From: an uncultured Candidatus Pelagibacter sp. | GTDB taxonomy: Bacteria > Pseudomonadota > Alphaproteobacteria > Pelagibacterales > Pelagibacteraceae | Direction: 5' to 3' | DNA length: 60,228 nt | NCBI GenBank assembly: GCA_905612465.1 | Contig: CAJQSC010000013.1 | Span: forward strand, 1 to 60,228 | In this document: piece by piece, positions 4,043-44,752 of the stretch | How positions within the stretch are numbered: the stretch's first letter is position 1 | How the letters are laid out: the number at the start of each line of letters is the position of its first letter | Notes under the pieces: model-generated | Database searches by the model: none | What the model saw: the letters and a program-made list of their open reading frames with translations, nothing else | What the model was told of the DNA's origin: nothing | Position numbers and translations under genes: made by a program

Positions 4043-4051
4043 TTTTGATCC

Positions 4052-7262: not shown

Positions 7263-7289
7263 ATATTCCCCTATCTATTATGTTAAAGA

Positions 7290-10381: not shown

Positions 10382-10485
10382 AGGAAAACACTATTCCTCT
10401 TAAAAAAGAATTAATAGGATTATTTTTATAACAAAAAAATATATATATAAAATAGTAATTTAGTGTGATGTTCTTAAATAAGGGT

Positions 10486-10836: not shown

Positions 10837-10841
10837 ATTAT

Positions 10842-13169: not shown

Positions 13170-13176
13170 TGGCAGT

Positions 13177-13195
13177 GTAAATTTAAATAATTTAC
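13177..13195. promoter_or_regulatory. Candidate palindromic operator in tdm/tmoX divergent region
   Basis: GTAAATT-TAAAT-AATTTAC, perfect 7-bp arms, 8 bp upstream of tdm ATG. Confidence 0.35.
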
Positions 13196-13284
13196 CATTA
13201 GCATAATATAATCAAAGGTCATTGACTATAAATTTAATAAGTGAGAACATAGAGTATTAACTTAATATTGAGGGAGAGAATATA

Positions 13285-14229
13285 ATGAAAAAAGTAATAT
13301 CATTAATATCTGCCTTAGTAATTTCAGCTGTAAGTTTTGCTGGAGTTTCTAACGCTGCAGATAGCAAAAAACCTATCGTTATTCCAACTCATAACTGGTC
13401 AAGTCAAATTGTAATGGCCCATGTTATTGGAGGAATTTTTGAAAGTATGGGAAATAATGTAAAATATGTAAACACAGACTCACAAGCTGTTTACGAGGCA
13501 ATTCGTATTGGTGATGTAAGTTTATCTCACGAAGTGTGGGAATCTGCGTTTGGTAAATCATTTACTACAGCACTAGACAAAGGTGGTTTAGTTGACTGGG
13601 GAGATCATGAGGCTAGAACTCTTGAAGATATGGGATATCCAAACTGGGTTGTTGAAAAAGGATTATGTCCTGGTCTTCCAGATTGGACTGCATTAAAAAA
13701 TCCAGCTTGTGCTAAAAACTTTACAACACCTGACTCAGGTGGAAAAGGAAGAATGTTAGAAGGACCACAAAGTTGGCATGGAGATTTAATACCACAAAGA
13801 GTTGACGCTTTAGGGCTTGGAGATCTTTGGACTGTTAAATTTGCTGGAAGTGCAGATGCACTTTGGGCTGAACTTAAATCTGCTGAAAAAGAAGGAAGAG
13901 GAACTATAATATTTAACTGGACACCAAACTTTACAGATGGTGCTGGTTTTACGTTTATAGACTTCCCTCCATATTCAGCTGGTTGCAGACCAGAAGATGG
14001 TGGTGATGGAAAATGTGGTTCGCCAGATGGTTATTTGAAAAAAGCTGTAAATGCAGATTTTCCAAAAACACATCCAGCAGCAGCAGGAGCATTTAAAAAA
14101 ATGTCATTCTCTACAAGTCACATTGGTGCAATGGCAGCTCTAGTTGATCTTGACAAATTGACTCATGAAGATGCAGCTAAAAAATGGTTAGCTGATAATA
14201 AGAGTGTTTGGCAAGCTTTTACTAAATAA
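13285..14229 (+). CDS. tmoX: TMAO / quaternary amine ABC transporter, periplasmic binding protein
   Basis: 314 aa with signal peptide; OpuAC-type binding protein; adjacent to tdm; SD GAGGGAGAG. Confidence 0.82.
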   Translation: MKKVISLISALVISAVSFAGVSNAADSKKPIVIPTHNWSSQIVMAHVIGGIFESMGNNVKYVNTDSQAVYEAIRIGDVSLSHEVWESAFGKSFTTALDKGGLVDWGDHEARTLEDMGYPNWVVEKGLCPGLPDWTALKNPACAKNFTTPDSGGKGRMLEGPQSWHGDLIPQRVDALGLGDLWTVKFAGSADALWAELKSAEKEGRGTIIFNWTPNFTDGAGFTFIDFPPYSAGCRPEDGGDGKCGSPDGYLKKAVNADFPKTHPAAAGAFKKMSFSTSHIGAMAALVDLDKLTHEDAAKKWLADNKSVWQAFTK

Positions 14230-14250
14230 GGGTAAAAGTTAATAAATTGA

Positions 14251-14284
14251 AATCTCTCCCAACAATGTTGGGGGGGATTTTTTT
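14251..14284 (+). terminator. Rho-independent terminator after tmoX
   Basis: CTCTCCCAACA-ATG-TTGGGGGGG hairpin followed by ATTTTTTT. Confidence 0.8.
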
Positions 14285-14331
14285 AAATAAGGTGCTCTCG
14301 CACAGACCCAAACTACGGACATATTAATTAG

Positions 14332-14775
14332 ATGATAAAATATTTTTTTTATATATTTCTTAGCTTATTAGCTTTTAATTTTTCTTTTGCAAAAAATATA
14401 GACATACAAGAAGATATTAAAATTGATTTTATATGTGAGCTAGAAAAGAAGATACTCAAGAATACAGAATATAATTATCAAACTTTTTTAGCAAAAGATT
14501 TAGATGATAAAAATTTAGACAAATTTGAAATTGATGCAAAACAACCAGAAAAACTTTTGATCAATGGTCTGTCATCGTTTCTATCAAAAACTTCAAAATT
14601 TGAGGTAAAAGTTGTTAATAAAGATGTAGTTTTGTTCAAAGCTTTTGATGAAGAAAAAAATTATTCAGAGTCAGGTATAATTAACAGAAAATCAGGTGAA
14701 TTAGTTCATGAAATTACAATAGGTTTAAAAAGTGATAATTTTGAAAAAAATATTTCTTTTTATTCATGTAGCTAA
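14332..14775 (+). CDS. Exported hypothetical protein
   Basis: 147 aa, N-terminal signal-like segment (YFFYIFLSLLAFNFSFAK). Confidence 0.65.
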   Translation: MIKYFFYIFLSLLAFNFSFAKNIDIQEDIKIDFICELEKKILKNTEYNYQTFLAKDLDDKNLDKFEIDAKQPEKLLINGLSSFLSKTSKFEVKVVNKDVVLFKAFDEEKNYSESGIINRKSGELVHEITIGLKSDNFEKNISFYSCS

Positions 14776-14784
14776 ATAAAAAAA

Positions 14785-15159
14785 ATGAAAAAGTATTTAC
14801 TTTATATAATTTTAAGTTGTTTGATTGCAACAACAGTATCAGCTCGAAAGACAGGTTGTGAGGGAAATTGTAAAGATGGTTTTGGTAAATGGACTTACAC
14901 GGACAAAACAACTTATGAAGGAAATTGGATTGGTACACAAAAACAGGGACAAGGAGTTGAGACTTGGCCTAATGGATATATTTATAAGGGTGAATTTAAA
15001 AATAGTGTGTGGAGTGGACAAGGTGTTTTAACCTTTCCAAACGGTGCAACTTATGATGGGGAGTGGGCTAATGGCTTTATGAATGGAGAGGGGACATTTA
15101 CAAGATCTGGTGGAAAAGAAATAATAGGAATTTGGAAAAATGGTAAATTACAAGAATAA
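14785..15159 (+). CDS. Exported MORN-repeat protein
   Basis: 124 aa; signal peptide plus YEGNWIGTQKQGQGVETWPNG / YKGEFKNSVWSGQGVLTFPNG / YDGEWANGFMNGEGTFT repeats. Confidence 0.85.
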   Translation: MKKYLLYIILSCLIATTVSARKTGCEGNCKDGFGKWTYTDKTTYEGNWIGTQKQGQGVETWPNGYIYKGEFKNSVWSGQGVLTFPNGATYDGEWANGFMNGEGTFTRSGGKEIIGIWKNGKLQE

Positions 15160-15165
15160 TTAAAA

Positions 15166-15717
15166 ATGTCACAAAATACATATTTAGATAAATTAATGAA
15201 GACATCCGAACCAGTTAGACAGTTTGGAGGTCTTATCATCTTAACAATTATTGTAATTTTTTCTTTTGCTATTTTAAATAGTATTTTTGGTGAGGGTGAA
15301 GAACTAATTGCTAAAATGAAAAAAGAAGAAAAAAGAATTGCAGAGACAAGAAAACAAAATGAACTGATTTCAAGTCTGCCATCAGGAATCTTAGTATTCT
15401 ACGATGGAACTGATCATTATGAATTATCTCCAGAGCAGTATGAAAAAGTTTGTAAAGCAACAAAGATTATTCCCCAACGTGCAATTATGGGTGCCAATTT
15501 TTTAAATTTTAGAGCACATCATATTTACACCATTAATGGAAATAAAATTGATGAAACATTCGTTAAGTGGAACAAGGAAAAAAATAAATGCTTTGCAGGT
15601 TTTACTGTGAGTGGAAATAATGTTGGGGTAGATGAAAAAATTACTGTTAGTGGAGAGGTTTTAAATTTCTTAAGTACTGGAATTGATACAAGAGTTTATT
15701 TTATTAAAAATTTTTAA
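15166..15717 (+). CDS. Membrane-anchored hypothetical protein
   Basis: 183 aa, one N-terminal TM (GGLIILTIIVIFSFAIL). Confidence 0.7.
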   Translation: MSQNTYLDKLMKTSEPVRQFGGLIILTIIVIFSFAILNSIFGEGEELIAKMKKEEKRIAETRKQNELISSLPSGILVFYDGTDHYELSPEQYEKVCKATKIIPQRAIMGANFLNFRAHHIYTINGNKIDETFVKWNKEKNKCFAGFTVSGNNVGVDEKITVSGEVLNFLSTGIDTRVYFIKNF

Positions 15718-15790
15718 GGAGGGAAAGAGCAAATACAAATAATATAAAAAGTGTTTTTTATTTTTATATCGTATAGCTTGTTAAAATATT

Positions 15791-16822
15791 ATGACTGATA
15801 CAGTAATTAAATGTGAATCTGTTTATAAAATTTTTGGAACTAATGCCAAAAAAATGCTTCAAGAAGCAAATGGAAATGTAGACGCTAAAACATTCCAAGA
15901 AAATGGATGTATAGTAGGTGTCAACAATGCTTCTTTTGAAGTTTTAAAAGGAGAAATGTTAGTTGTTATGGGTTTATCTGGCTCAGGAAAATCAACATTA
16001 TTAAGATGTATTTCTAGATTAACAGATGCAACTGCAGGGAAAATTTTCATTGAGGGCCAAGATTTACTTTCATTAAATAATAAAGAACTGATTGAACTTA
16101 GAAGAAATAAAATGGGAATGGTGTTTCAAAGTTTTGCTTTGCTTCCTCATAAAACAGTTGTTGAAAATATTGCTTTCCCACTTCAAATTAAAGGTATTAA
16201 AACCAAAGATAGCATCAATAAAGCAATGGAAATGGTTAAGCTTGTTGGTCTTGATGGAAGAGAAAACTATTTTCCAAGAGAGCTTTCTGGTGGACAGCAG
16301 CAAAGAGTAGGTATTGCACGATCATTAGCTGTTGAGCCTGATATTTGGTTTTTAGATGAGCCATTTTCTGCATTAGATCCGCTAATTAGAAAAGAGATGC
16401 AGGATGAATTTTTAAGACTTCAAGAAAAATTACAAAAAACAATTATGTTTATCACGCATGATTTTGATGAGGCCTTAAAACTTGCTGATCGTATTGCAAT
16501 AATGAAAGATGGAATAATTGAACAGTTGGATACACCAGCTAACATTGTGTTAAATCCAGCCACAGAATACGTAAAAAAATTCACTGAAGAAGTTCCTAGA
16601 GAGAAGGTTTTAAAAATAGAAGATGTAATGGAAAAACCAAATAATGAAAATTTAAGTGATTTAAAAGTTTTAAGAAATGAAATAATTGAAAATGTAGCTG
16701 AAAAAATATTAACTCAAGAAAAGTCAGTATCTGTAATTGATGAAAACAATCAAATTGTTGGCACTGTTCATCCATCAAAAATAATAAGTACAGTTTTTGG
16801 TGGAAAAAAAAGTACCGATTAA
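15791..16822 (+). CDS. tmoW: TMAO / quaternary amine ABC transporter, ATP-binding protein
   Basis: 343 aa; Walker A GLSGSGKST, LSGGQQQRVGIARSLA, Walker B IWFLDEP. Confidence 0.87.
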   Translation: MTDTVIKCESVYKIFGTNAKKMLQEANGNVDAKTFQENGCIVGVNNASFEVLKGEMLVVMGLSGSGKSTLLRCISRLTDATAGKIFIEGQDLLSLNNKELIELRRNKMGMVFQSFALLPHKTVVENIAFPLQIKGIKTKDSINKAMEMVKLVGLDGRENYFPRELSGGQQQRVGIARSLAVEPDIWFLDEPFSALDPLIRKEMQDEFLRLQEKLQKTIMFITHDFDEALKLADRIAIMKDGIIEQLDTPANIVLNPATEYVKKFTEEVPREKVLKIEDVMEKPNNENLSDLKVLRNEIIENVAEKILTQEKSVSVIDENNQIVGTVHPSKIISTVFGGKKSTD

Positions 16823-16825
16823 AAT

Positions 16826-18979
16826 ATGGAATTATTAAAAAAATATCCAAAATTATTTCAATGGATATTTTTATTAGTTGCATTTTTTACTTTATGTTTT
16901 GCAATTGATGTTCCAGAAACTTATAAATTTATTAGAGGTCAAGCAGAATTCATTAAAGACCCAAATCAAAGTACTTACACTCTCTTTGGTGCAGAAGTCA
17001 GATATTATGCATTTGATGTTTTTTGGAGGCTACCTCCTTTACTTGGGTGGTTACCTATCTGGATAAATGATTCATTATTTTTTTTAATGAATGATTGGAT
17101 GCCAATAGAATTTTGGAATGAAGATACTCAAGAATTCAGAACCCAACCTTTAGTTTTAAAAATAACAAGAAATTTAACTTCATTTATAACCTTTCTAATA
17201 GAATTAATTAGAGAGATATTATTAGGTGGTGTTGAAACTATTGTTGCATTTACAAGTTGGGATTGGATAAGTGAAAATTCATGGGCAGAATTACCGGGTT
17301 TACCGTGGACAATTGTTGCAGCGGGAGCGGCAATACTTGGATATAAATTAAGTGGTAAAGGTCTAGCTTTATTTGCTGCTATAGTCATGGTTTATATTTC
17401 TATTTTTGGTCAATGGAAACCTTCGATGCAAACACTTTCTTTTATATTAGTAGCAGCACCACTATCATTTATTTTCGGTTTGAGTTTAGGCATCATGGCA
17501 TTCAAAAGTAAACGTGTGGAGAAAGCTTTATACCCAATACTTTTAGTTATGCAGACCATGCCTCAATACGCTGTATTGGTTCCTGCAATTGTTCTTTTTG
17601 GTGTTGGTGATCATGCTGGAGTAATTATAACGATGGTTGTAGCTGTTCCACCAATGATACTGCTGACTTTGTTAGGTCTTAGAGGTGTATCTCCTGAGGT
17701 AATTGAAGCTGGCCGAATGAGTGGATGTAATAATTTACAGCTTATGTTTAGAGTATTAATCCCAACTGCTAGAAGAGATATTTTGATCGGAGTGAATCAG
17801 GTTATCATGGTGTGTTTTTCTATGGCAGTCATTTCAGCTTTTATAGGCGCCAAAGGTTTAGGGTTTAATTTATTGCTAGCCTTAAATCAACTAAACATCG
17901 GATTAGCGCTAGAAGCAGGTTTATGTATTAGTTTAATTGCGATACTTTTAGATAAATTATCTTTAGCTTGGGCAAATAAACAAACAGATTATTTTGGTAA
18001 CTTAACTTTTTTTCAACGTTATAAAAATTTATTATTTTTTTCAGGTGCAATATTGATTGGAATTATATTTGCCTATTTTGGATCTTTTTACTTTAAGGAA
18101 GGCTTTAATTATTTATATGAAATTCCTCACAACAAAGGAATATCAACTGCAGATTTTTGGAATAAAGGGGTTGATTGGATTTGGGATACTTTCTTTCAAA
18201 CTTTAAAAATTTTTAATACATGGTTGATAGTAGATGTATTGCAGCCCATGCGAGCTGCTTATTTGCGCATGCCTATTGTTGCAACATTTGTTTTAGTTAT
18301 GGGAGCTGGTTATATAATTGGAGGAATACGTTCAGCTTTAACAGTAGGGGGGTTAACATTATTTATAGCATTAAGTCCATGGTGGGATAGAGCTTTAGTT
18401 ACTACATACATGGCAACTTTTGGAGTTATCTTATCTTGTGTAATTGGTTTTACTGTTGGAACTTTATGTTTTCAAAATAAACATACAACAAATTTTATGT
18501 TGGGTGTTTGTGATATTTTTCAAACATTCCCTTCATTTGTATACTTAATTCCAGTGATGATGCTTTTTGGGGTTACAGATACATCAGTATTAATCGCGGT
18601 AGTTGTTTATGCAACTATACCTGCCACAAGATATACGATTGAAGGATTAAAAAGTGTTCCATCTTCTTTGCATGATGCAGCTTCAATGTCAGGTGTAACA
18701 AAAATACAAAGATTGTTGAAAATAGAATTCCCTTTAGCACTTCCTCACATGATGCTTGGTTTAAATCAAACAATTGTATTTGCTTTATTTATGGTAATTA
18801 TCGGAGCATTTATTGGAACGGAAGATTTGGGACAATATATTTTAAAAGCTATATCTGATAAAAAAGGTGCAGGTATAGGACTAACACTAGGTCTTTGTGT
18901 TGCTTTTATAGGCTTAGTATTTGATCATTTAATTCGAACTTGGGTAGAAAAAAGAAAAAAACATCTGGGTATAGATTAG
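16826..18979 (+). CDS. tmoV: TMAO / quaternary amine ABC transporter, two-lobed permease
   Basis: 717 aa; two copies of BPD permease EAA-type loops (EAGRMSGCNNLQLMFRVLIPTARRDIL; DAASMSGVTKIQRLLKIEFPLALPHMM). Confidence 0.85.
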   Translation: MELLKKYPKLFQWIFLLVAFFTLCFAIDVPETYKFIRGQAEFIKDPNQSTYTLFGAEVRYYAFDVFWRLPPLLGWLPIWINDSLFFLMNDWMPIEFWNEDTQEFRTQPLVLKITRNLTSFITFLIELIREILLGGVETIVAFTSWDWISENSWAELPGLPWTIVAAGAAILGYKLSGKGLALFAAIVMVYISIFGQWKPSMQTLSFILVAAPLSFIFGLSLGIMAFKSKRVEKALYPILLVMQTMPQYAVLVPAIVLFGVGDHAGVIITMVVAVPPMILLTLLGLRGVSPEVIEAGRMSGCNNLQLMFRVLIPTARRDILIGVNQVIMVCFSMAVISAFIGAKGLGFNLLLALNQLNIGLALEAGLCISLIAILLDKLSLAWANKQTDYFGNLTFFQRYKNLLFFSGAILIGIIFAYFGSFYFKEGFNYLYEIPHNKGISTADFWNKGVDWIWDTFFQTLKIFNTWLIVDVLQPMRAAYLRMPIVATFVLVMGAGYIIGGIRSALTVGGLTLFIALSPWWDRALVTTYMATFGVILSCVIGFTVGTLCFQNKHTTNFMLGVCDIFQTFPSFVYLIPVMMLFGVTDTSVLIAVVVYATIPATRYTIEGLKSVPSSLHDAASMSGVTKIQRLLKIEFPLALPHMMLGLNQTIVFALFMVIIGAFIGTEDLGQYILKAISDKKGAGIGLTLGLCVAFIGLVFDHLIRTWVEKRKKHLGID

Positions 18980-19350
18980 TTAAAATATTCAACCTCAGAA
19001 AAAGTATTCGTTGGAAAAATCCAATAAAATTCTAAGGTTTCTTTTCCATAATTTTTTAAGCCATGTTTTGCATTTCTTGCAATATAAACTACATCACCTT
19101 TCTTAATCTCTTCAAGTTCACCAGATTTATTTAATATCCCTTCACCACTAGTAATTACATATATTTCCGCAGGAGAATGATAGTGGAGTGTTAAGTCACC
19201 CCCTGGAGCAATTTCTACAAAACCAAGTGAAAGTCCAGAACTTCCCATAAAATCTGCATCAATTAAAAGTTTCCATCTAACACCTGGATATTTGTCGGTT
19301 GTTGTCCACTCTTGATCAGAGACAGATTTAAGATTTTTGACAAATATCAT
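18976..19350 (-). CDS. Cupin-domain protein, downstream of tmm
   Basis: 124 aa; LTLHYHSPAEIYVITSGEGILNKSGELEEIKKGDVVYIARNAKHGLKNYG. Confidence 0.85.
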   Translation of the reverse strand: MIFVKNLKSVSDQEWTTTDKYPGVRWKLLIDADFMGSSGLSLGFVEIAPGGDLTLHYHSPAEIYVITSGEGILNKSGELEEIKKGDVVYIARNAKHGLKNYGKETLEFYWIFPTNTFSEVEYFN

Positions 19351-19370
19351 GCAAAATTACAAGTTATGGC

Positions 19371-20711
19371 TTACTTTTTAGGCTGATCTAAAAATGTTTT
19401 TAAAGAATCGTCCATTGCAACTTCCCAGGCCGTATGATGTTTTGGACCAATTGAACCAGTCACAGGTGAAGAAAAAGACTTATTTCTATAGGTCATAATA
19501 TTTTCTACTTTATGGTGCTCCCATTCTTTAAAAGTTTTTCTAATCAATTCAAAATCAATTTTTGGATAATCAGATAAAGTATGAAGTTCTTTTGTGTACT
19601 CAGTTTGAAAATCTATCATTTGATCAGCACTTTCTAATTTTTCTTCCATCGATACCCATTTATTTATATCTTTTTCTATTTCTGAACTATCTGGAACTTT
19701 AATCTTTCCCATTATAACATCTCTTGCAAACCAAGCCTGACAATCAAACATATTAAAAGTATGAAATTGATCTTGCATGCCTAGGTAAAATAATTTGTGA
19801 TTATTCTGCCAAACCACACCTTTATATAATTTTGGTGGATACAATCTATTTCCTGTATTTAATTTTAAATCTTCAGATAAAAAAGGAAAATGATGAAGGT
19901 AACCTGTACATAAAATTACAGCATCTGCTTCTTGCACATGCCCATCTTTAAAAATTGCTTTATTGCCCTCAAGTCTATCTAGGTGATAAACTTCTTTCAT
20001 TCCTTTTGGCCAATTAAATCCCATTGGATTATGCCTATAAGCTATTGTTACACTTTTCGCTCCATATTTATGGCACTGAAGAGCTACGTCTTCCGCAGAA
20101 TAACTGCTTCCTAAAACAACTACATTTTTATCTCTAAATTCTTCTGCATCTCTAAAATCATGAGAGTGCATTATTCTACCAGGAAAAGCTTTCATACCAG
20201 GATATTCTGGAATGAATGGAACAGAAAAATGTCCATTAGCTATAATAACATAATCAAAAATATCTGTTGAAGAGGTAGCTTTTTTTTTATCACGATAAGT
20301 AACTTCAAAATTATTACCATTATAAACAACATTAGTAACTGTAGTGCTAAATTTTACTTTATTTTTTGAATTCCCTTTTTTTATTCTACCCAAAATATAA
20401 TCATACAAAACTTCTCTAGGTGGAAAAGATGGTATAGGTTTTCCAAAATGTTCATCAAAAGAATAATCGGCAAATTCTAGACATTCTTTAGGACCATTTG
20501 ACCAAAGATATCTATACATACTATTAGGTACAGGGTCACCGTATTGATCAGATCCTGTTCTCCAACTGTAGTTCCATAATCCTCCCCAATCTTCTTGTTT
20601 ATCAAAACAAACTATTTCAGGTATTTTTTCACCTTTTTTCTCAGCTTGCTCAAAAGATCTCAAAGTGGATAATCCACATGGTCCAGCCCCAATTATTGCT
20701 ACTTTTGTCAT
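19371..20711 (-). CDS. tmm: Trimethylamine monooxygenase (flavin-containing monooxygenase family)
   Basis: 446 aa; FAD motif IGAGPCGLSTL, NADPH motif VVLGSSYSAEDVA, FMO-type motif region; adjacent to TMAO transporter and cupin. Confidence 0.88.
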   Translation of the reverse strand: MTKVAIIGAGPCGLSTLRSFEQAEKKGEKIPEIVCFDKQEDWGGLWNYSWRTGSDQYGDPVPNSMYRYLWSNGPKECLEFADYSFDEHFGKPIPSFPPREVLYDYILGRIKKGNSKNKVKFSTTVTNVVYNGNNFEVTYRDKKKATSSTDIFDYVIIANGHFSVPFIPEYPGMKAFPGRIMHSHDFRDAEEFRDKNVVVLGSSYSAEDVALQCHKYGAKSVTIAYRHNPMGFNWPKGMKEVYHLDRLEGNKAIFKDGHVQEADAVILCTGYLHHFPFLSEDLKLNTGNRLYPPKLYKGVVWQNNHKLFYLGMQDQFHTFNMFDCQAWFARDVIMGKIKVPDSSEIEKDINKWVSMEEKLESADQMIDFQTEYTKELHTLSDYPKIDFELIRKTFKEWEHHKVENIMTYRNKSFSSPVTGSIGPKHHTAWEVAMDDSLKTFLDQPKK

Positions 20712-25789: not shown

Positions 25790-27046
25790 ATGCAAAAATA
25801 TTCAATATTTAACCTAATAAAAAATGCTTTCTCCGGTCATCAAAAGTGGGATTTAGCTTGGAAAGATGCTACTCCAAAAAAGGAATATGATGTTGTTATT
25901 ATTGGTGGTGGAGGCCATGGGCTAGCTACCGCATATTATCTTGCAAAAGAACATAACATTACCAATGTAGCTATTATTGAAAAAGGATGGCTTGGTGGTG
26001 GAAATATGGGAAGAAATACCACGATTATTAGATCAAACTATATGCATGACGACAATGCTTTGTTCAGTGAGTTTGGAATGGATCTATGGAGAAAGATGAG
26101 CCAGGATTTAAATTACAATGTAATGTTTTCTCCAAGAGGAATAATTAATCTTGCACACTCAGATGCCCAAATGAATGTTTTTGCAAGAAGAGGAAACTCA
26201 ATGCGCCTAAATGGTATTGATGCAGTTCTTTTAAATAGAGAAGAAGTAAAAGAAATTATTCCAATGGCAGATTTTTCAGACAATGTAAGATTTCCTATAT
26301 TTGGTGGATTAATGCAACCAAGTGCAGGAACGGCTAGGCATGATGCTGTTGCATGGGGTTATGCTCGTCAAGCAGATTCAATGGGTGTAGATATAATTCA
26401 AAATTGTGAGGTAACAGGTTTTGATGTTGTGGGTGGAAAAATTCAAGGAGTGAGAACTTCACGTGGAGATATTAAAGTTAAGAAAATTGGTTTATGCGTT
26501 GCAGGTAGCACAAATATTTTAGCTGAAAAACTAAATATGACAATACCGGTAGAAACTCATCTTCTTCAGGCGTGCGTTACAGAACCTGTAAAGCCTGTGT
26601 TAGATAGTGTGGTTACTTTTGGGGCAGGACATTTTTATATTAGTCAATCTGATAAAGGTGAAATGGTAATGGGAGGTGATCTAGATGGATACAATAGTTA
26701 TGCTCAAAGAGGAAACTTACCAACACTTCAGCATGTACTAACAGAAGGAATTGCAATGATGCCATTTCTTAGTAAATTAAAAATGCTTAGAACTTGGGGT
26801 GGGATAATGGATATGTCTATGGATGGCTCACCCATAATAGACAAAACTCATATTGAAGGATTATACCTAAACTGTGGATGGTGTTATGGTGGATTTAAAG
26901 CAACTCCAGCTTCAGGCTGGACATTTGCACATACAATTGCTCAAGATAGAGTTCATAAATTGAATGCTGGATATAGTTTGAGTAGATTTAATACAGGTCA
27001 CTTACTAGATGAAAAAGGACTTGGAACCAAAACATGGATCTCATAA
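25790..27046 (+). CDS. soxB: Sarcosine oxidase beta-type subunit / N-methylglutamate dehydrogenase subunit
   Basis: 418 aa; DVVIIGGGGHGLATAYYLA, heterotetrameric SoxB signature, followed by soxD/soxA/soxG. Confidence 0.88.
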   Translation: MQKYSIFNLIKNAFSGHQKWDLAWKDATPKKEYDVVIIGGGGHGLATAYYLAKEHNITNVAIIEKGWLGGGNMGRNTTIIRSNYMHDDNALFSEFGMDLWRKMSQDLNYNVMFSPRGIINLAHSDAQMNVFARRGNSMRLNGIDAVLLNREEVKEIIPMADFSDNVRFPIFGGLMQPSAGTARHDAVAWGYARQADSMGVDIIQNCEVTGFDVVGGKIQGVRTSRGDIKVKKIGLCVAGSTNILAEKLNMTIPVETHLLQACVTEPVKPVLDSVVTFGAGHFYISQSDKGEMVMGGDLDGYNSYAQRGNLPTLQHVLTEGIAMMPFLSKLKMLRTWGGIMDMSMDGSPIIDKTHIEGLYLNCGWCYGGFKATPASGWTFAHTIAQDRVHKLNAGYSLSRFNTGHLLDEKGLGTKTWIS

Positions 27047-27313
27047 ATGCTACATATTAAATGCCCACATTGTGGAATGAGGTCACAAAATGAATTTTCC
27101 TATGGAGGTGACGCAACAGTTAAAAGACCAGAGTTAAACAAAGAAGTTTCAGACCAAGACTGGGATAATTTTGTTTATAATAGAAAAAGTTTAAGAGGAA
27201 AACACCTTGAGTTTTGGCAGCATTTATCAGGTTGTAGACAATGGATTAAGGTAGAGAGAGATACCGCAACTCATGAAATATTCAAGACATTAAAAGCTAA
27301 CGAAGATATTTGA
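27047..27313 (+). CDS. soxD: Sarcosine oxidase delta-type subunit / N-methylglutamate dehydrogenase subunit
   Basis: 88 aa; IKCPHCGMRSQNEFSYGGDA ... EFWQHLSGCRQWIKVERDT. Confidence 0.92.
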   Translation: MLHIKCPHCGMRSQNEFSYGGDATVKRPELNKEVSDQDWDNFVYNRKSLRGKHLEFWQHLSGCRQWIKVERDTATHEIFKTLKANEDI

Positions 27314-27316: not shown

Positions 27317-30313
27317 ATGGCACAAGATTTTAGACTAGATACTGTTGGATTAATAAATAGAGATAAGAAATTATCATTTGAATTTAATGGAAAAAATTAT
27401 TTTGGTTATGAGGGTGATACTTTAGCATCTGCACTGCTTGCTAATGGAGTTCATCTAATTGGTAGAAGCTTTAAATATCATAGGCCTAGAGGCTTTTTTG
27501 GTGCTGGAGTTGATGAACCTTACGCAATTGTTCAGTTATATAGAAATAATGAGACAGAACCCAATGTAAAGACTACAGAACAAGAGCTTTTTGAGGGATT
27601 AAAAGCAACTAGTGTTAACTGTTGGCCCAGTGTAAATTTTGATATTGGAGCAATTAATAATTTTTTAAAAGTATTTCTTCCAGCTGGATTTTATTACAAG
27701 ACATTTATGTGGCCAAAAAGTTTTTGGTATAAAGTTTACGAACCATTTATTAGGAAGGCAGCCGGTCTTGGTGTTGCATCAATTAAACATGATAAAGAAA
27801 GATACGAACACAAGTATGAGTACTGTGATTTATTAATTGCAGGATCTGGTCCATCAGGTTTAGCCAGCGCATATGCCGCTGCTAAAAATGGAGCAACAGT
27901 TATATTGGCAGAGGACAAATCGAGATTTGGTGGAACGCTGCTAACTAGTGAGGTTAATATTGGAAACCAAACTGGGAAAGAATGGGTGGAAAATATAATT
28001 GCTGAACTTAAAGAAATGCCCAATGTTACTGTGAAAAATAGATCTCAGGTTTTTGGTTATTATGATCACAACATGTTAGTTATGTCAGAAAAAATAAGTG
28101 ATCACTTGCCTAAAACAAGAAAATATCATCCAAAGCAAAGACTTTGGTATATCAGAGCAAAAGAAGTTTTAATTTCGTCAGGATCAATTGAAAGACCATT
28201 AGTCTTTGGAAATAATGATACACCAGGCGTAATGCTGTCATCAGCAGCAAAAGAATATTTAAAAGTCTATGGAGTTTTAGTTGGAAAAAAACCTTTAATA
28301 TTTACAAACAATGACAGTGGCTACGAAACTGCAATTGAGTTTAAAAAAAATGGAGTTGAACCAATCATATTAGATACAAGAAAAGAACCTAACTCAGAAA
28401 TAATAGAAGAGGCTAAAAATCTAGGTATACAAATTAAATTTTCTTATGTAGTTGTTGCAGCCAAAGGATATAAAAAAGTTAAATCTGCTGAAGTTGCAAA
28501 AATTTCAGATGATAAAAATGAATTAGGAATTTTAGAAAATATTACTTGTGACTGTATTTGTGTTTCAGGTTTTTGGACACCAACAATACATTTAGCGTCT
28601 CAATCAGGTAATAAAACTAAATTTGATAAGGATATAGATGCTTTTGTACCTGGTGTATCAAAACAGAATGAAACTACCTTAGGAGCAGCAAATGGAACAT
28701 TCACGCTTGCAGAAACTTTAAAAGAATCATTTAATGCTGGCTATGAGCTATCTAAAAAAATAACTAAAAATGATAACAAAATTTCACACCCTATTGTTGT
28801 TGAAAAAAATAAAACAACCCATGATAAATTTTGGTGTGTTCCATTACCAAAAGGAAAAAATTATAAAAGATTTTTAGATTTTCAAAATGATGTGGCTGTT
28901 TCCGATATAGAGATTGCGCTAAAAGAAGGATATCGATCTATTGAGCATGTTAAAAGATACACAACACTTGGAATGGCAACAGATCAAGGAAAAACAAGTA
29001 ATCTTAATGGTTTACAATTAGTTTCAAATATAGAAAATAAAATTGTACCAGAGGTAGGTCATACTACTTTTAGACCTCCATATACACCAGTTACCATTGG
29101 TGCAATTGTTGGAAGAGAAGTAGGAAAGCATTCCAGAGCAACCAGAAAATCACCATTACATTCATGGCATGAAAAAAATAATGCAGTATTTGTTGATGCA
29201 GGTGTTTGGTTAAGACCAAGATATTATAAACAAGGAAATGAAACATTATTTGAAGGATCAAAGAGAGAAGCGAAAAATGTTAGAGCAAATGTTGGTGTCT
29301 GTGATGTTACCACTTTAGGTAAAATTGATATTAAAGGACCAGACGCTGCAGAATTATTAAATAGAGTGTATACAAATGCTTGGCTAAAATTACCAGTTGG
29401 TAAAGCAAGATATGGTGTAATGTTAAGAGAAGATGGAATTGTAATGGATGATGGAACTACTACTAGAATTTCAGAAAATCATTATCATATGACAACAACT
29501 ACTGCTCAAGCTGCAAATGTTTTATCGCATCTTGAGTATTATCTACAATTAGTATGGCCAGAGTTAAATGTAAATGTTGTTTCTTCAACAGAACAATGGG
29601 CAGGGGCAGCTATAGCAGGACCTAAATCTAGAGACTTGATGCAAAAATTATTTCCAAATATAGATGCGTCGAATGAAGGCCTACCATTTATGGGCTACTT
29701 AGAAACAAAATTATTTGGTGCTACAGCAAGAATTTTCAGAATTTCATTTTCAGGTGAACTTGCATACGAAGTTAACGTAGAATCAGATAATGGAAACTTC
29801 ATGTGGGAAAAAATCATAGAAGTTGGTAAGGAATTTGAAATTCAACCATATGGAACAGAGGCATTATCAACATTAAGAATTGAGATGGGACATGTAGCTG
29901 GTTCAGAGTTGGATGGGAGAACAATTCCATATGATAATTCTTTAGAAGGGTTAGTTAGTAAAAAGAAAGACTTTATTGGAAAAAGATCATTAAATAGAAA
30001 AGCATTTATAGCAGAAGATAGACAAAAAGTTGTAGGTGTTGTTCCATTAGATAAAAAAACTAGTATTCCAGAAGGATCTCACTTAGTAAAAGATGCTAAC
30101 GCGCAACTTCCAAACCCTAAATTGGGATATATCTCTGCTTCATGTTGGAGTGTTGAGCATGATAATCCATTTTCTTTAGCTATTCTCAAAGATGGAAAAA
30201 ATATGATTGGCCAAAAACTATTTGTAATGTCACCATTAAAAAATATAACAATACCAGTTGAGATAGTTTCTTCGCATTATGTGGATCCAAAAGGTGAAAG
30301 AGTAAGATCATGA
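27317..30313 (+). CDS. soxA: Sarcosine oxidase alpha-type subunit / N-methylglutamate dehydrogenase subunit
   Basis: 998 aa; N-terminal 2Fe-2S-like domain, NAD fold ([21 protein letters not shown]), C-terminal GcvT domain. Confidence 0.92.
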
Positions 30314-30897
30314 CCTCAATATCAGCTCTAAAAAATGTTCATATTAAAGGTCTTTTTGGTGATTATGAGAATAAAAACGAAAAAGATTTATTAAAGATAT
30401 CAGAAAATAAAGATTTATTAATCATTCAAATAGTTCAATATAAAAATTCTTCAACTTCGTTAGATAGTTTAAAAATTGACGACTTAAACTTAAAGAATGA
30501 AGTTATTAGTGTAATGAATAATGATGATACAAGAATTTTGTGGAATGGACCAAATAACTGGCTTTTAGTTTCAAATAAAAAAAATCTTTTAAAAGAAATT
30601 GTTGAAAAGTTTGATGCAAATAATTTTTCAATTACTAATTTATCTCATTCAAGAGCAATAATTGAGCTAGATGGTGAAAATGCAAAAGAAGTACTAAAAA
30701 AAGGATGTCCTTATAATTTTAATGAATTAAAAAAAGATAACAGCTTAAATTCAACTTTTAATGGGATGTCAGTTACAATTGATGTGCTAAATGATAATCC
30801 ACAAAAGATAAGAATATTTACATTAAGAAGTTTTGGTGAATCTTTATACCACTCAATTACAGACAGTTGTTTAGAGTTTGGTTACAAAAGTATTTAA
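30310..30897 (+). CDS. soxG: Sarcosine oxidase gamma-type subunit / N-methylglutamate dehydrogenase subunit
   Basis: 195 aa; overlaps soxA stop by 4 nt; position and SoxG-like fold pattern ([24 protein letters not shown]). Confidence 0.82.
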
Positions 30898-37283: not shown

Positions 37284-38258
37284 ATGATAAATTTTAAAAT
37301 TGATAATTTACAATACTGCAACTGGTCTAGAGAGATCTTTGAGATAAATAGGCAAGCAGGACTTGATGCTATACATGTAACTATTGTTTACCACGAAGAC
37401 TTTGACGAACTAAAAACAGTAATAAAAATTTGGGAAAAAAATTTTTTAGATAATTCAGATTTAATTTTTCACGGTAAAAGTTTTAAAGATATTGAAAAGG
37501 CTAAATCTGAAAATAAAACTGCAGTATTTTTTGGGTTCCAAAATTGTTCACCTATAGAAGATGATATAGGATTAGTTGAAAAAGTTTATGATTTAGGGTG
37601 TAGATTTATGCAGCTTACTTATAATAACCAGTCTTTACTGGCAACAGGTTGCTATGAAAGTGTAGATAGTGGAGTTACTAATTTTGGTAGAGAAACAATT
37701 AAAGAAATGAATAGACTAGGTCTTGTAATAGACATGTCTCATTCAGCAGAAAAAAGTACAATTGATGCAATCGAGATAAGTGAAAAACCGATTGCAATAA
37801 CTCATGCAAACCCTTTATTTTGGCATCCAGCTAAGAGAAACAAATCAAACAAATTGTTAAAGATTTTGTCAGAGCATAAAGGAATGTTGGGTCTGTCTTT
37901 ATACCCTCATCATTTAAAAGATGGAACTGATTGTTCTTTAGAAAGTTTTTGTGAAATGACAGCAAAGACAGCTGAGATCATGGGAGTTGAAAAAATAGGA
38001 ATAGGTTCAGATCTTTGTCTAAACCAACCAGATACTATTGTTGAATGGATGAGAAATGGTACTTGGAGCAAAAGTAAAAATTATGGAGAAGGGTCAAAAA
38101 ACAAACCTGGTTTTCCAAAACAACCTGATTGGTTTTTAGATGCAAGAGGGTTTGAAAACTTAGAAGCAGGACTTAAAAAAGTTGGTTTTTCAGAAAGTGA
38201 AGTTAATGGAATTCTTGGAAACAACTGGTACAATTTTTACAAAGAAATGAACCAATGA
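37284..38258 (+). CDS. Membrane dipeptidase (peptidase M19)
   Basis: MINFKIDNLQ start; VIDMSHSAEKSTIDAIEIS, AITHANPLFWHPAKRNKS, IGIGSDL metal-site motifs. Confidence 0.9.
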   Translation: MINFKIDNLQYCNWSREIFEINRQAGLDAIHVTIVYHEDFDELKTVIKIWEKNFLDNSDLIFHGKSFKDIEKAKSENKTAVFFGFQNCSPIEDDIGLVEKVYDLGCRFMQLTYNNQSLLATGCYESVDSGVTNFGRETIKEMNRLGLVIDMSHSAEKSTIDAIEISEKPIAITHANPLFWHPAKRNKSNKLLKILSEHKGMLGLSLYPHHLKDGTDCSLESFCEMTAKTAEIMGVEKIGIGSDLCLNQPDTIVEWMRNGTWSKSKNYGEGSKNKPGFPKQPDWFLDARGFENLEAGLKKVGFSESEVNGILGNNWYNFYKEMNQ

Positions 38259-39907
38259 ATATTCCATTAAGAGATCCCAATGTAGTAATGAAACTATCAA
38301 GACTAGGGTCTTTTCATCAATCTAAACTTTCATTTTTAAGAAGTTTTTTAAAAGAGTTTAAAGACTGGGATTATAAAAGAGATTTATTTGAATTAAACGA
38401 ATATGGTTATGGGACTGCAGTTTATTCATTTAAGAAAAAAAATAGAGTTTATTCATTAATTTGTTTTGCAAATGAATTGGATGAAAATGAAAGATCAGAC
38501 AGAGTTATAGCTACTAAATGGGATGCAGCCTTTACACTATTTGATGGTGTTCCTTTAAAACAAGATATTGAAAGATTACAAAACGAAGTACCAAAACAAG
38601 AATTTGGCCGACTTTCATATAAAGAATTAACACTTTCAAGAGCTAATAAATCAGTTAGAGTTTTCAATCATGTAGTTGAATGTTTAAGCGAAGGCAAGCA
38701 GCCTGATAATGACTTAATAACTAGCGTTGGTTATTTATATAGAACTACAGCAGTTTATGGGTCAGGTAAATTCGGCTTAGCAGATAGATTTAGAATTAAA
38801 GATAGAGAAGAAATATATGGTCCTTTTAGATTGGAAATGATGTTGGTTTATTTAGTTAGGCAATTTACTTTTGATCAAGTTAATCACGTTGCAAGAAGCA
38901 AGAACCCAAAAAAAGCTATAAATCTTGATATAAATATTTGTAAAAGTTTAGGAATAGGAAATTCTACGGGTCTAGGAATGGCTCCATTTATTGTTAACCA
39001 TCCAACTCTTTTAAATAATTGGATTTCCGCAAGGGAGATTTCTTTAAAAAAAATAAGAGAGATAAAAACAATATCAGAGAAAGATAAAAACTTATTTTTA
39101 GAATGTTTAAAAAAATCGATAAAGAATATTACTTCGTGGAATACAGAAAGTGAGTACCAAATAAATAAAATTAGATCTTTATTAAAAGATCTTAATGAAT
39201 TTATTGTCTACTTAGATAGCGATTTTAGTTTTGAGCAAGATTACGCTTTTAATGAACTGTATCTACATTTAGAAAAAGAATATTGTGAGGAGTGTATTGA
39301 ATATGTCGTCTCGATGATGATGGAACCTTATGACGATATTACTTCACCCTTGATTAAAGAAATGAGTTCTGAAGAAGAAAAATATTTTAATATTCCAACT
39401 GAGAGAACTGTAGAAGACTTAAAGCTAATTTTAGAAAAAAAATATCCAGATATCTTAACTATAGATTTTACTAAAAATGAAAATAATTTAAATTTTTGGT
39501 TTATTTCAAAAAATAAAGAAGAGCCAAGACTAGCAAATAGATTTGATGAAGTGGGAGCTGAGTTAGAGCAACCTTTAGCAATAGCAAGAGACATTAAAAA
39601 ACTTTATGAATTGTTATCAGTTACTAAAAATAGCTGGACCATTGCTAAATTTTTATCAACCAATAATGAATTAAGACACGTTGTTAGAAGAGCATTTATA
39701 GTAGAGAAATTTCCTTATTCTGAAATACAAGATAATACCATTGGCCAAAAAATAATGCCTATTGATATGCTGAGATTAAAATTATCTTTTTTTGGAGCTT
39801 TAAAATTTGATCCACGTTCTGATAAATGGTTAAGAATATGCATGTTCCAAGGAGCACCCTTACCAGAGCAATTAAAAAACTATGATGAACATTGGGTTTA
39901 TAATTAA
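38255..39907 (+). CDS. Uncharacterised 550-aa protein in M19 operon
   Basis: 550 aa; 4-nt overlap with dipeptidase; no family recognised. Confidence 0.85.
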   Translation: MNIPLRDPNVVMKLSRLGSFHQSKLSFLRSFLKEFKDWDYKRDLFELNEYGYGTAVYSFKKKNRVYSLICFANELDENERSDRVIATKWDAAFTLFDGVPLKQDIERLQNEVPKQEFGRLSYKELTLSRANKSVRVFNHVVECLSEGKQPDNDLITSVGYLYRTTAVYGSGKFGLADRFRIKDREEIYGPFRLEMMLVYLVRQFTFDQVNHVARSKNPKKAINLDINICKSLGIGNSTGLGMAPFIVNHPTLLNNWISAREISLKKIREIKTISEKDKNLFLECLKKSIKNITSWNTESEYQINKIRSLLKDLNEFIVYLDSDFSFEQDYAFNELYLHLEKEYCEECIEYVVSMMMEPYDDITSPLIKEMSSEEEKYFNIPTERTVEDLKLILEKKYPDILTIDFTKNENNLNFWFISKNKEEPRLANRFDEVGAELEQPLAIARDIKKLYELLSVTKNSWTIAKFLSTNNELRHVVRRAFIVEKFPYSEIQDNTIGQKIMPIDMLRLKLSFFGALKFDPRSDKWLRICMFQGAPLPEQLKNYDEHWVYN

Positions 39908-39912
39908 TCAAC

Positions 39913-40524
39913 ATGAGATCATTAAGTGAAATAGATACAGTTTCTAAACGATCGAGCAGGGCTGCTGGATATTCATGGGGTATTGCAGAAGAGATTGGAA
40001 AAAATATAAGACTACTTGAGATTTTTAGCCTACCTGGAATTAAAAACTTAAATAGTTTTTTTAAGAAAAAAAAAGAATTAAGTTTAGAGAATATCAGCAT
40101 CATAAAACAAGACAATGAGGCCAATAAAAATGAATATTGTCCAATAATTGCAGGGGTAAATTTTTTAGATCAGATTAAAACTTTAGAAACTTTAAATGAG
40201 ATAACGTTTAAGAAAGTCTCATATCCATTACTTTTCCTACCATTTGTAAGTAGGGCAGCCGAGGTAATTGGTAAAAGAATTTTCTTAAAAATAGATGATA
40301 GGGAATTTTTATTAAACTTTAATAACAATATTTATTCTAATCACGCTAAAAACGAAATCATCGAGTCTGCTGAAAATATTTATTTAAAAGTTTTAGAAAA
40401 TAGAGACACGTTTGAAGAAAAAGAATGGAACGAACTCTATAAGCTTTCAGAAGAAACTTTTGTTGAGGAAAATGAAAGCCTAAAACAAGGTGGAGCAGGA
40501 GCTGGTCTTACTGATAATGACTAA
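39913..40524 (+). CDS. DUF3726-like protein with GGAGAGLTDND C-terminus
   Basis: 203 aa; N-terminus SLSEIDTVSKRSSRAAGYSWGIAEEIGKNIRLLE resembles DUF3726 (from memory). Confidence 0.75.
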   Translation: MRSLSEIDTVSKRSSRAAGYSWGIAEEIGKNIRLLEIFSLPGIKNLNSFFKKKKELSLENISIIKQDNEANKNEYCPIIAGVNFLDQIKTLETLNEITFKKVSYPLLFLPFVSRAAEVIGKRIFLKIDDREFLLNFNNNIYSNHAKNEIIESAENIYLKVLENRDTFEEKEWNELYKLSEETFVEENESLKQGGAGAGLTDND

Positions 40525-40687
40525 AGACTTTGACGATCAAACTAATGATAATGAAGAAGTTCTTCAATTAGATAATTTTTGTGAAGAGTGTAAAAAAGAA
40601 GACCCGAGCGTTTCTCAAAATTTAATTTTAACAGGATTTAAAACCTGTAATTCTTGTAAGCTTTCAAAAACTATATTTCCGATTTAA
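40490..40687 (+). CDS. Small zinc-ribbon-like protein
   Basis: Two CxxC pairs (FCEECKK ... TCNSCKL); overlaps the upstream ORF; internal start possible (ATG at about 40517, MTKDFDDQTND). Confidence 0.65.
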   Translation: MEQELVLLIMTKDFDDQTNDNEEVLQLDNFCEECKKEDPSVSQNLILTGFKTCNSCKLSKTIFPI

Positions 40688-41376: not shown

Positions 41377-42735
41377 TTAACCTTTAACGACTTCTCTTGT
41401 GTTTGCGTTATAAGATTCTGTAAATGGCATATCTACTACCACCGCATCAACAGGAGTTCCTGGAGTGTCAGAATATTCTGCAGGTAAGTGAACTTTGTAT
41501 TTAGTTCCAGCTTTTCCTTTAGGGAATCCGTTTGCATTTAATGTTCCATCAAATGGCACATATCCCATTGCAATATTTTGACCTTTTTCAGGATGATACC
41601 AAGGTGAAGTAATAAACCCAACTGGATCACCACCATTCTCAGGTGATACTAACCAGAAGTCAGGAGCATATTCTTCAATTGGTTTTCCACCCATTTCAAG
41701 TCCAACTAGTTGAAGTTTATAAGGTTTTTTTCCATCCTTAATCTCAGCACCCATTTTCTCTAATGCAGCTTTTCCAACATAATCAGCTTTTTTATTCCAC
41801 TCACCTTTACCAGCTAATGAAACTTGGTAACCAAGGTTACACTGAAAAGGATTGTGTTGATGATCCATATCTTGACCCCAAGAAAGAATTCCAGCTTGAA
41901 TTCTTCTATGGTGAGCAGGAGCGATAACCATTAGGCTATGTTTTTTACCTGCAGCAAGAACAGCATTCCACATATCATCAGCATATTTAGTTGCTTCTCT
42001 TAAGTAAATTTCATAACCAGCTTCACCCGAGAAACCAGACTGTGAAATTACACAACTTCTTCCACCAACTTTAACTTCAGCTAATCCATAGAAAGGCATA
42101 TTGTCGAAATCAACCTGATCTCCACAAAGATCTTTCATCAAAGCTTTTGATTTAGGTCCTTGAATTTGTACCGGACAAACATCAATCTCTTCAATAGTAC
42201 AATCAAATCTTCCATCAGCATTAACACCTTGAAGATACATACCAATATCAGAGTCTGATAATGAGAACCAAAATTCATCTTTAGAAATTCTAAGAAGAAT
42301 AGGATCATTTAAAACTCCACCATATGCATTACAAAGAATTACATATCTTGCTCTCATAGGTGAGATTTTAGTTGCATCTCTAGTTATTACGTAGTCTGTA
42401 AACTTTTCTGCATCGGGACCTTTAACTCTAATTTGTCTTTCAACAGCAACGTTCCACATAGTAACGTGATTTTTAATTGCTTCATACTCTACCATCGCTC
42501 CGCCATCTTCAGGTTTTACATAACCACGAGGGTGATAAATACGATTGTAAACAGTTGCTCTCCAACAACCAGCTTCCATTGATAGATGCCAGTATGGAGA
42601 TTTTCTTACTCTTGTTGAAATTAACATTTCAACTTTTGTAGGCCCACTTTGTCTTAAGTTGTATGGTACTTCACGATCTGATTGATCAACTGAAGTCACA
42701 TGATTTAGTTTAGTATAGTCAAATTCATTAGACAT
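41377..42735 (-). CDS. GcvT-family, DmdA-related THF-dependent demethylase; substrate not assignable
   Basis: 452 aa; GcvT fold (VYNRIYHPRGY, MWNVAVERQIRVKGPDAEKFTDYVITRD, SGFSGEAGYEIYL, GILSWGQDMDHQHNPFQCNLGYQV). Confidence 0.8.
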   Translation of the reverse strand: MSNEFDYTKLNHVTSVDQSDREVPYNLRQSGPTKVEMLISTRVRKSPYWHLSMEAGCWRATVYNRIYHPRGYVKPEDGGAMVEYEAIKNHVTMWNVAVERQIRVKGPDAEKFTDYVITRDATKISPMRARYVILCNAYGGVLNDPILLRISKDEFWFSLSDSDIGMYLQGVNADGRFDCTIEEIDVCPVQIQGPKSKALMKDLCGDQVDFDNMPFYGLAEVKVGGRSCVISQSGFSGEAGYEIYLREATKYADDMWNAVLAAGKKHSLMVIAPAHHRRIQAGILSWGQDMDHQHNPFQCNLGYQVSLAGKGEWNKKADYVGKAALEKMGAEIKDGKKPYKLQLVGLEMGGKPIEEYAPDFWLVSPENGGDPVGFITSPWYHPEKGQNIAMGYVPFDGTLNANGFPKGKAGTKYKVHLPAEYSDTPGTPVDAVVVDMPFTESYNANTREVVKG

Positions 42736-43492
42736 AACCGTTCTCCTTCAACCACTTGTTAGTTTCCTTCAAGCCGCCGAATGTATAAATGTGGAAGTTG
42801 TCAGTAAACTCTTTCACTTTCCCAATCAATTCATTAGGGTCTTTAGGTTTCAATAAATCTAATGCCTTGCTAAAATTAGACTTAAGAAAATTAATGGAAT
42901 TTTTCGCCCCGACAATATTAGCAAATTTTATTAAGCTAGTTATTTTCATTGGCCCAGTAATTCCTACATGCACTGGTACTGACTGCTTAGAAATGAAATC
43001 TATGATAGGTTGACTCTCTAGTAACCACTGGGTCACTATATAGTCGGCGTAAGGCTTTTTATCTATCATGGCTTTTTCTAATTTTGTATCGGACATATCC
43101 TGACTTCCTTCTGGATGTCCTGCTATTCCTATTTTAATTCCATCAAAAAATCCTGTCTCTAAAATTTGAATTGAGCTATCAAATTTTCCAATTGGATCTC
43201 TACTACCACCAATTACTAAAGCTTGTTTTGTACCTACATCTTTACATCTTGAAATATAATCTTTAAGTTGAGCCTCATCATTAATTGATCTAGCTGGAAA
43301 ATGTGGAACAGGATTAAATCCTTTTTTTACTAAAGCATCAGCTTTTTCAGCCGTCTCTTTATAGTCTCCACCAGGAAGCATAGTTATATAAACATCCTTG
43401 ACGGGAGGTAAAGTATCTAGGTCTGTGTGAGGTCCTACCTCAAGTGAAAAATTCATTTTTCCGATCATTATCTTTTTTGTAAAAGCTGTCAA
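42728..43492 (-). CDS. Short MetF-like (methylene-THF reductase fold) protein
   Basis: 254 aa; SLEVGPH, GFNPVPHFPARSI, LVIGGSRDP, IAGHPEGSQ, YIVTQWLLE. Confidence 0.8.
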   Translation of the reverse strand: MTAFTKKIMIGKMNFSLEVGPHTDLDTLPPVKDVYITMLPGGDYKETAEKADALVKKGFNPVPHFPARSINDEAQLKDYISRCKDVGTKQALVIGGSRDPIGKFDSSIQILETGFFDGIKIGIAGHPEGSQDMSDTKLEKAMIDKKPYADYIVTQWLLESQPIIDFISKQSVPVHVGITGPMKITSLIKFANIVGAKNSINFLKSNFSKALDLLKPKDPNELIGKVKEFTDNFHIYTFGGLKETNKWLKENGYV

Positions 43493-43519: not shown

Positions 43520-44752
43520 TTGTTGTCAAAAGTTTCCCCAATGTTAGGATTTTTTATGGGTAAAAAAAATGACAATTCTTTGCTCTCAGCAATCCTTGAC
43601 CTTAAAAAAATAGAGGCTGTTGATAAACTGATTGAGGAAGCTCATGGCCTTCCTAACGAGTGTTATACCAGCAGTGAATACCTCAAGATTGAAAGAGATA
43701 AGATTTTCTCAGATAAATGGACTGTAATTGGTGTTGGAAGCTCTGTTCCAGATATAGGAGACGCTAAACCCTTTGAGCTTTTGGGGATACCTCTAATTAT
43801 AATTAGAGGAAATGATCAGAAAATTAGAGTTTTTCATAATGTCTGTAGTCACAGAGGGTTAAAGATCCTAAATGAACCTTGTACTCTGAAGAATGTCTTA
43901 AGATGCCCGTATCATTCATGGTCTTATGATTTTAGAGGGTCCTTAGTTGCAACCCCCCACATGGGTGGCTTAAATATTCATCAAGTAGATAACTTTGATA
44001 AATCCAAGAGCAACTTAAAAGAAGTCAGATCTAAGGTTTGGATGGATATGATTTTTATCAATTTAAACAATAATGAAATTGAATTTAATGATTATATCAA
44101 ACCACTTGAGGTCAGGTGGTCAAAATTTATCTGCAAAGATGACCAACAACTAATAAGACACGCTAAGGATTACGGTTACATTAACCTAAATGTTAAGAGT
44201 AACTGGAAATTTGCAATTGAAAATTATTGTGAGAGCTATCATTTACCAACTATTCATCCTGAGTTAAATAAAACGTCAAATATAAACGATCATTACCATA
44301 TACAAGGGTTGCCAAATAGATTTGCAGGACAGGGTAGCTATAAATACAATCAACCAATTAAGGGAAATAAAAAATTTAATAGCTTTCCTTCTTGGCCAGA
44401 AGATCTAGCTTTAAATGCAGAGTATGTTGCTTTATTTCCAAATGTTATGGTTGGTTTACACATAGACCACTTTTATATTTTTTGGTTAGAGCCCATATCT
44501 ACTAATGAAACTAAAGAACATATAGAGATGTATTACGTTGGAGAAGAGAGTGCTTATGGTGATGACTTTAAGGAAATGAGAAAAGAAAATTCAAAATTTT
44601 GGAAAGAAGTTATGACAGAAGATATTTTTGCTATTGAGGGAATGCAGGCAGGTAGAGCATCACCAGCATATAATGGGGGTAATTTCTCACCAGTTATGGA
44701 TAATCCAACCCATCAATTTCATAAGTGGATAGCAACAAATATAATAGATTAA
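43520..44752 (+). CDS. Rieske [2Fe-2S] ring-hydroxylating-type oxygenase alpha subunit (true start possibly 43541 or 43556)
   Basis: CSHRGLKILNEPCTLKNVLRCPYHSWSYDFRG Rieske motif; ENYCESYHLPTIHPEL iron-site motif. Confidence 0.9.
   Translation: MLSKVSPMLGFFMGKKNDNSLLSAILDLKKIEAVDKLIEEAHGLPNECYTSSEYLKIERDKIFSDKWTVIGVGSSVPDIGDAKPFELLGIPLIIIRGNDQKIRVFHNVCSHRGLKILNEPCTLKNVLRCPYHSWSYDFRGSLVATPHMGGLNIHQVDNFDKSKSNLKEVRSKVWMDMIFINLNNNEIEFNDYIKPLEVRWSKFICKDDQQLIRHAKDYGYINLNVKSNWKFAIENYCESYHLPTIHPELNKTSNINDHYHIQGLPNRFAGQGSYKYNQPIKGNKKFNSFPSWPEDLALNAEYVALFPNVMVGLHIDHFYIFWLEPISTNETKEHIEMYYVGEESAYGDDFKEMRKENSKFWKEVMTEDIFAIEGMQAGRASPAYNGGNFSPVMDNPTHQFHKWIATNIID

Follow-up and report, generated by a model that had tools for sequence, protein, structure and literature searches.

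Among the abundant osmolytes of phytoplankton is homarine (N-methylpicolinate), and no heterotroph in the ocean outnumbers SAR11. In Rhodobacterales, SAR11, and SAR116, a conserved pathway for homarine catabolism is reportedly encoded by homABCDER, five genes and a regulator. Rapid drawdown of homarine has been reported for Ruegeria pomeroyi (PMC12817926). The N-methylglutamate dehydrogenase Mgd takes part in homarine catabolism (PMC13390433); the same paper refers to a 2026 study by Ferrer-Gonzalez et al. of a conserved homarine pathway (Nat Microbiol, doi 10.1038/s41564-026-02313-7). SAR11 has two sarcosine oxidase-type (sox) operons, and which of them is N-methylglutamate dehydrogenase was left unclear by Sun et al. 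2011 (PMC3160333).

The locus described here lies in a 60,228-nucleotide stretch of DNA from an uncultured Candidatus Pelagibacter sp., referred to below as the window. It carries a compact gene cassette, also found in many other bacteria of sea and soil, that is probably the SAR11 form of the recently published homarine pathway.

A Three-Gene Core with a Lineage-Specific Fourth Gene

The cassette is made up of four packed genes on the plus strand. The first (37284–38258, +) encodes an M19-fold amidohydrolase of a noncanonical clade (Pfam PF01244, E 1.1e-67; 229 bits against a cut-off of 26). It overlaps by 4 nt the gene for P550, a protein of 550 residues (38255–39907, +), which is followed after a 5-bp gap by the gene for a DUF3726 protein of 203 residues (39913–40524, +; Pfam PF12525, E 8e-30; 103 bits against a cut-off of 22.1). 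The fourth gene (40517–40687, +) encodes a putative zinc-ribbon mini-protein of 56 residues with two CxxC pairs. The initial annotation had already named the M19, DUF3726-like, and CxxC proteins, and these calls are borne out, together with the positions, the 4-nt overlap, and the 5-bp gap. Its 35-nt overlap between the last two genes does not stand. With the start that agrees with relatives, the ATG at 40517, the overlap with the end of the DUF3726 gene is 8 nt long (ATGACTAA); the GTG start of the mini-gene, which is not common to the relatives, and the longer overlap are artefacts.

The conservation of the cassette was followed in a sample of 289 alphaproteobacterial genomes. DUF3726 occurs in 35 of these and P550 in 41, and the two genes are adjacent in all 35 genomes that have DUF3726, so their tight linkage is not a matter of chance. 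An M19 gene lies within a few kilobases in 29 of the 30 such genomes with enough flanking sequence (counted by eye from a table). In Mesorhizobium, P550 and DUF3726 are naturally fused in a single ORF of 814 residues. The linkage is stronger than the initial annotation could know. The co-conservation that it had suggested looking for in all four genes across the Alphaproteobacteria holds for M19, P550, and DUF3726, and these three form the conserved core.

The mini-gene is a lineage-specific fourth member, an accessory gene seen only in Pelagibacteraceae loci. Its product has a core, SVSQNLILTGFKxCxSC, that is conserved across SAR11 loci, and it has no significant Pfam or NCBIfam family match. 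It was not found in a SAR11 genome that is 99% complete (G281) or in the genomes of a small-genome family in the same class (f30; G029 and G243). The close relatives of the DUF3726 gene in the window are found in Pelagibacter genomes, including strain HTCC9565.

More distant loci were also seen. In both Sinorhizobium pSymB (L158, 7716–11390) and a Bosea plasmid (L159, 8001–11362), a distant P550 (about 25% identity) is accompanied by M19 and by a protein of 236–238 residues that has no DUF3726 match; these loci may represent another type of the cassette. Diverged second copies of P550 occur at L151 6410–8092 (G238), where the surrounding flanks hold no cassette partners, and at G146:C1:1237871.

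An M19 Protein Without the Canonical Dipeptidase Ligands

The peptidase M19 family includes the membrane or renal dipeptidases. In renal dipeptidase the canonical binuclear zinc site is formed by an HxD motif, a Glu, and two His ligands, together with a catalytic Asp. The cassette M19 protein belongs to the same fold family and keeps two His and one Asp (H153, H174, and D243, invariant across 104 cassette homologues). In contrast to the dipeptidases, it has D7-x-L-Q10 in place of HxD in nearly all of the 104, and in every one of them a Gln (Q86) sits where the bridging Glu would be, so that three of the six site residues are lost and the canonical ligand set is broken. Because both the HxD motif and the bridging Glu are replaced, plain dipeptidase activity appears unlikely. 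A mononuclear amidohydrolase is possible. The nearest solved relative in the PDB, 2i5g, is annotated as an amidohydrolase and has a similar N terminus and the same Glu-to-Gln change.

P550 and Its DUF3726 Partner

P550 is conserved in a series of loops (YGSGKFG, GNSTGLGMAP, EPR, and FDPRSDxW) and has no Pfam or NCBIfam match and no sequence match in the PDB. Its AlphaFold model (pTM 0.83, pLDDT 78) finds no PDB fold match with Foldseek at E<=0.001. Several low-confidence segments of the model overlap the invariant motifs, as would be expected if a ligand or partner orders them. A comparison of P550 with the profile of Ldh, a dehydrogenase encoded in the longer operons described below, showed no relation. 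The fold does not allow a catalytic residue or cofactor to be named, and this counts against a role in homarine catabolism.

The Pfam model of DUF3726 spans only the first ~73 residues, and the conserved C-terminal tail lies outside it. The initial annotation had picked out this unusual tail, and it proves to be kept, also beyond SAR11: AG[AS]Gx(2-3)DND terminates 87 of 104 distinct family members, and the remaining 17 end in degenerate versions, nearly all with GAG. In the AlphaFold model (pLDDT 88) the tail is at very low confidence. The model matches malate and ureidoglycolate dehydrogenases in Foldseek (prob 1.00, E 4e-3, partial cover, TM 0.42–0.46), and hhalign against the operon Ldh gives an E of 3e-4 with a probability of 40%. 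These dehydrogenases belong, with DpkA, to the Ldh_2 family, of which the full operon encodes a true member. By comparison with that family, the DUF3726 protein, at ~200 residues, covers part of the fold and is without the SHG motif that holds the catalytic His; S47-H48-G49 is invariant in the Ldh alignment and has no counterpart in DUF3726. DUF3726 has the look of a dehydrogenase fold put to another use.

A sequence search of the PDB gave no usable match for DUF3726, and matches to enoyl-ACP reductase (E 0.016) were taken as chance. None of the papers searched mentions DUF3726, and a search for PA5396 gave no result.

Full Operons and the Reduced SAR11 Set

Elsewhere the cassette is part of a longer operon. 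The full order is LysR, an aldehyde dehydrogenase (ALDH), M19, in some cases a BCCT transporter, P550, DUF3726, and Ldh, and then BCCT or glycine-betaine ABC transporters. This arrangement is found on annotated plasmids of Phaeobacter, Ruegeria, Aliiroseovarius, Shinella, and Aminobacter. The Mesorhizobium operon comes with a branched-chain-type ABC transporter, and in Pseudomonas the order varies. RidA, a Rieske oxygenase, purU, and "sarcosine oxidase" operons lie near the cassette in some loci. The nearest family of the operon ALDH is 2,5-dioxovalerate dehydrogenase, below cut-off, and the nearest PDB relative of the operon Ldh is delta1-piperideine-2-carboxylate reductase, 1wtj. The dedicated joint function that had been read from the tight gene packing thus gains backing from the kept adjacency, the P550–DUF3726 fusion, and the recurring catabolic partners.

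In the f30 family, ALDH and Ldh lie close to the cassette. No orthologue of the operon ALDH (best match 36%) or Ldh (35%) occurs in core SAR11 genomes, two near-complete genomes among them, which counts against a role in homarine catabolism. DMSP demethylase genes neighbor the cassette in Phaeobacter; DMSP was rejected as the substrate, as these neighbors do not recur elsewhere.

Downstream of the cassette in the window, a 452-residue GcvT-type protein and an MTHFR-like protein are encoded at 41377–43492 (−). In most SAR11 loci these two genes face the cassette convergently; the GcvT-type protein matches the DMSP demethylase model far below cut-off. A Rieske oxygenase gene at 43520–44752 (+), resembling glycine betaine monooxygenase far below the cut-off of that family, follows the MTHFR-like gene in many, though not all, SAR11 loci.

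Association with N-Methylglutamate Dehydrogenase

A set of mgdABCD-like genes lies 6.4 kb upstream of the cassette in the window. The mgdA-like gene (25790–27046, +), of the type annotated as sarcosine oxidase beta, matches TIGR01373 and forms an operon with the gene at 27317. The mgdB-like gene (27047–27313, +; sarcosine oxidase delta type) is assigned by its position between mgdA and mgdC, and the mgdC-like gene (27317–30313, +), for the large subunit, by its clade in a tree. The mgdD-like gene (30310–30897, +; sarcosine oxidase gamma type) is the last mgd ORF, and G281 has a homologue at the corresponding position. The window also holds gmaS (7290–8759; GlnA-III-like) and mgsABC (4052–7262; Glu_synthase at 4178–5170), which together occupy 4052–8759 on the minus strand. 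They give this genome another way of making N-methylglutamate, so Mgd has another role there as well. The surrounding SAR11 trimethylamine region (2109–20711) comprises an AmtB-like gene, mgsABC, gmaS, a TMAO demethylase, a betaine-type ABC transporter, and a trimethylamine monooxygenase.

Raw similarity proved ambiguous for separating MgdC from SoxA and was rejected in favor of trees, in which the sox-like alpha subunits fall into two groups. One group unites the copy beside gmaS/mgs in G029, the copy near gmaS/mgs in G238, the window gene at 27317–30313, and all tested cassette-linked plasmid copies, Roseobacter and Shinella plasmids among them. On its composition this group is taken as MgdC. 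The clade is supported in two trees, and the deep branches beyond it in the quick tree have low support. The second SAR11 sox-type copy (L206 and L208) falls outside. On the question left by Sun et al. 2011 (PMC3160333), the tree favors the SAR11 sox operon near fhs as the N-methylglutamate dehydrogenase, since that copy groups with Mgd.

The genomic association between the cassette and MgdC-clade genes is strong but indirect. Of 37 cassette genomes, 24 have a gene of this clade; of 28 cassette-free genomes taken arbitrarily, by number, 2 do (Fisher p 2e-6, for genomes that are not independent and with phylogeny uncorrected). Among genomes with any member of the family, the counts are 24/34 and 2/10 (p 0.008). 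Two of the 24 (G287 and G174) were assigned by 65–70% identity to the query, their genes having a stop or a contig break. The MgdC-type gene of G287 (L239; G287:C42:1694–4642) contains one in-frame TGA, either an assembly error or the mark of a pseudogene. No MgdC-clade gene was recognized in the other 13 of the 37 cassette genomes, and this too counts against a role in homarine catabolism.

Individual genomes add detail. In G281, mgdABCD lies ~7 kb from the cassette, and neither gmaS nor mgsC was found. Five further cassette genomes (G076, G152, G185, G242, and G274) have an MgdC-type gene without mgsC, and in G152 mgdABCD adjoins the cassette. The cassette-free genome G042 has an MgdC-type gene without mgsC as well, so the argument from N-methylglutamate is not exclusive to the cassette.

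A Probable Role in Homarine Catabolism

The presence of an amidohydrolase and Mgd, in company with a betaine transporter, an imine-type reductase suited to a 2-carboxylated ring, and a dehydrogenase for a C5 semialdehyde, suggests an N-methylated, 2-carboxylated ring, as in homarine, for the starting compound. The cassette is therefore likely to be the ring-attacking part of the catabolism of an N-methylated, 2-carboxylated pyridinium betaine, most probably homarine, with N-methylglutamate as the product. The occurrence of the cassette with mgd in G281, without N-methylglutamate synthase or gmaS, fits such a conversion of homarine to N-methylglutamate.

In the proposed mechanism, P550 and DUF3726 would form one enzyme that acts on the pyridinium ring, either opening it or abolishing its aromaticity. 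An N-formyl or enamide C–N bond would result, which the M19-fold hydrolase would cleave, with one carbon lost as formate. In the full operons, the aldehyde dehydrogenase would oxidize a C5 semialdehyde and Ldh would reduce an N-methyl imine. MgdABCD would demethylate N-methylglutamate to glutamate and methylene-THF. Core SAR11, with only M19, P550, and DUF3726, would have to use other dehydrogenases or stop earlier. A bolder proposal, with rather less than an even chance of being right, is that P550 and DUF3726 constitute an enzyme of a new type, its fold absent from the PDB, opening or dearomatizing an N-methyl-pyridinium ring, where the GAGAGxxDND tail of DUF3726 reaches the P550 active site and core SAR11 has a reduced three-protein version.

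The betaine transporters, the imine-reductase-type Ldh, and the Mgd linkage do not single out homarine, and the cassette might degrade another N-methylated carboxylated betaine, of the trigonelline, proline betaine, N-methylproline, or N-methylpipecolate type, by a route whose end product is N-methylglutamate or an N-methyl amino acid related to it. The trigonelline and stachydrine routes are not known to run via N-methylglutamate, which counts against such substrates. For homarine, the link to Mgd is documented (PMC13390433), and another betaine is considered unlikely. Service in methylamine or trimethylamine metabolism would suit a cassette that lies 6.4 kb downstream of mgdABCD and shares the 60-kb window with tmm, tdm, and gmaS. 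It is very improbable given that G281 has the cassette and mgd without gmaS or mgsC, and that no gmaS/mgs was found beside the cassette and mgd in Roseobacters and Shinella.

The tentative idea of the initial annotation was that a peptide, or a metabolite resembling a dipeptide, is modified or turned over; M19 would hydrolyze it and the other cassette proteins would handle it. This accords with the M19 Pfam match and with the dipeptidase activity of related M19 enzymes. The idea is probably wrong, as the M19 protein is without canonical metal ligands (all or nearly all of the 104 cassette proteins have other residues at the HxD and bridging Glu positions) and the conserved context is that of N-methylated betaine catabolism. 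Cassette contexts show no recurrent peptide transporter or second peptidase, and a peptide substrate now seems scarcely credible.

Comparison with the Known Homarine Cluster

If the genes are assigned to homarine catabolism, a named carbon and nitrogen route would be added to SAR11. The new part is the chemistry of P550 and DUF3726, along with the smaller number of genes in SAR11. No family or solved fold matches the central protein, its partner resembles a dehydrogenase fold, and the hydrolase is an M19 protein minus the dipeptidase ligands. Set against homABCDER as it is reportedly composed, the cassette likewise has, in its full operon, five enzymes and one regulator, and it is spread across Rhodobacterales and SAR11, with a probable endpoint at N-methylglutamate and Mgd. 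All six genes are found in the Roseobacter copies of the cassette. The core SAR11 copy, that of the window included, differs from homABCDER in having three of the five enzyme genes together with the mini-protein.
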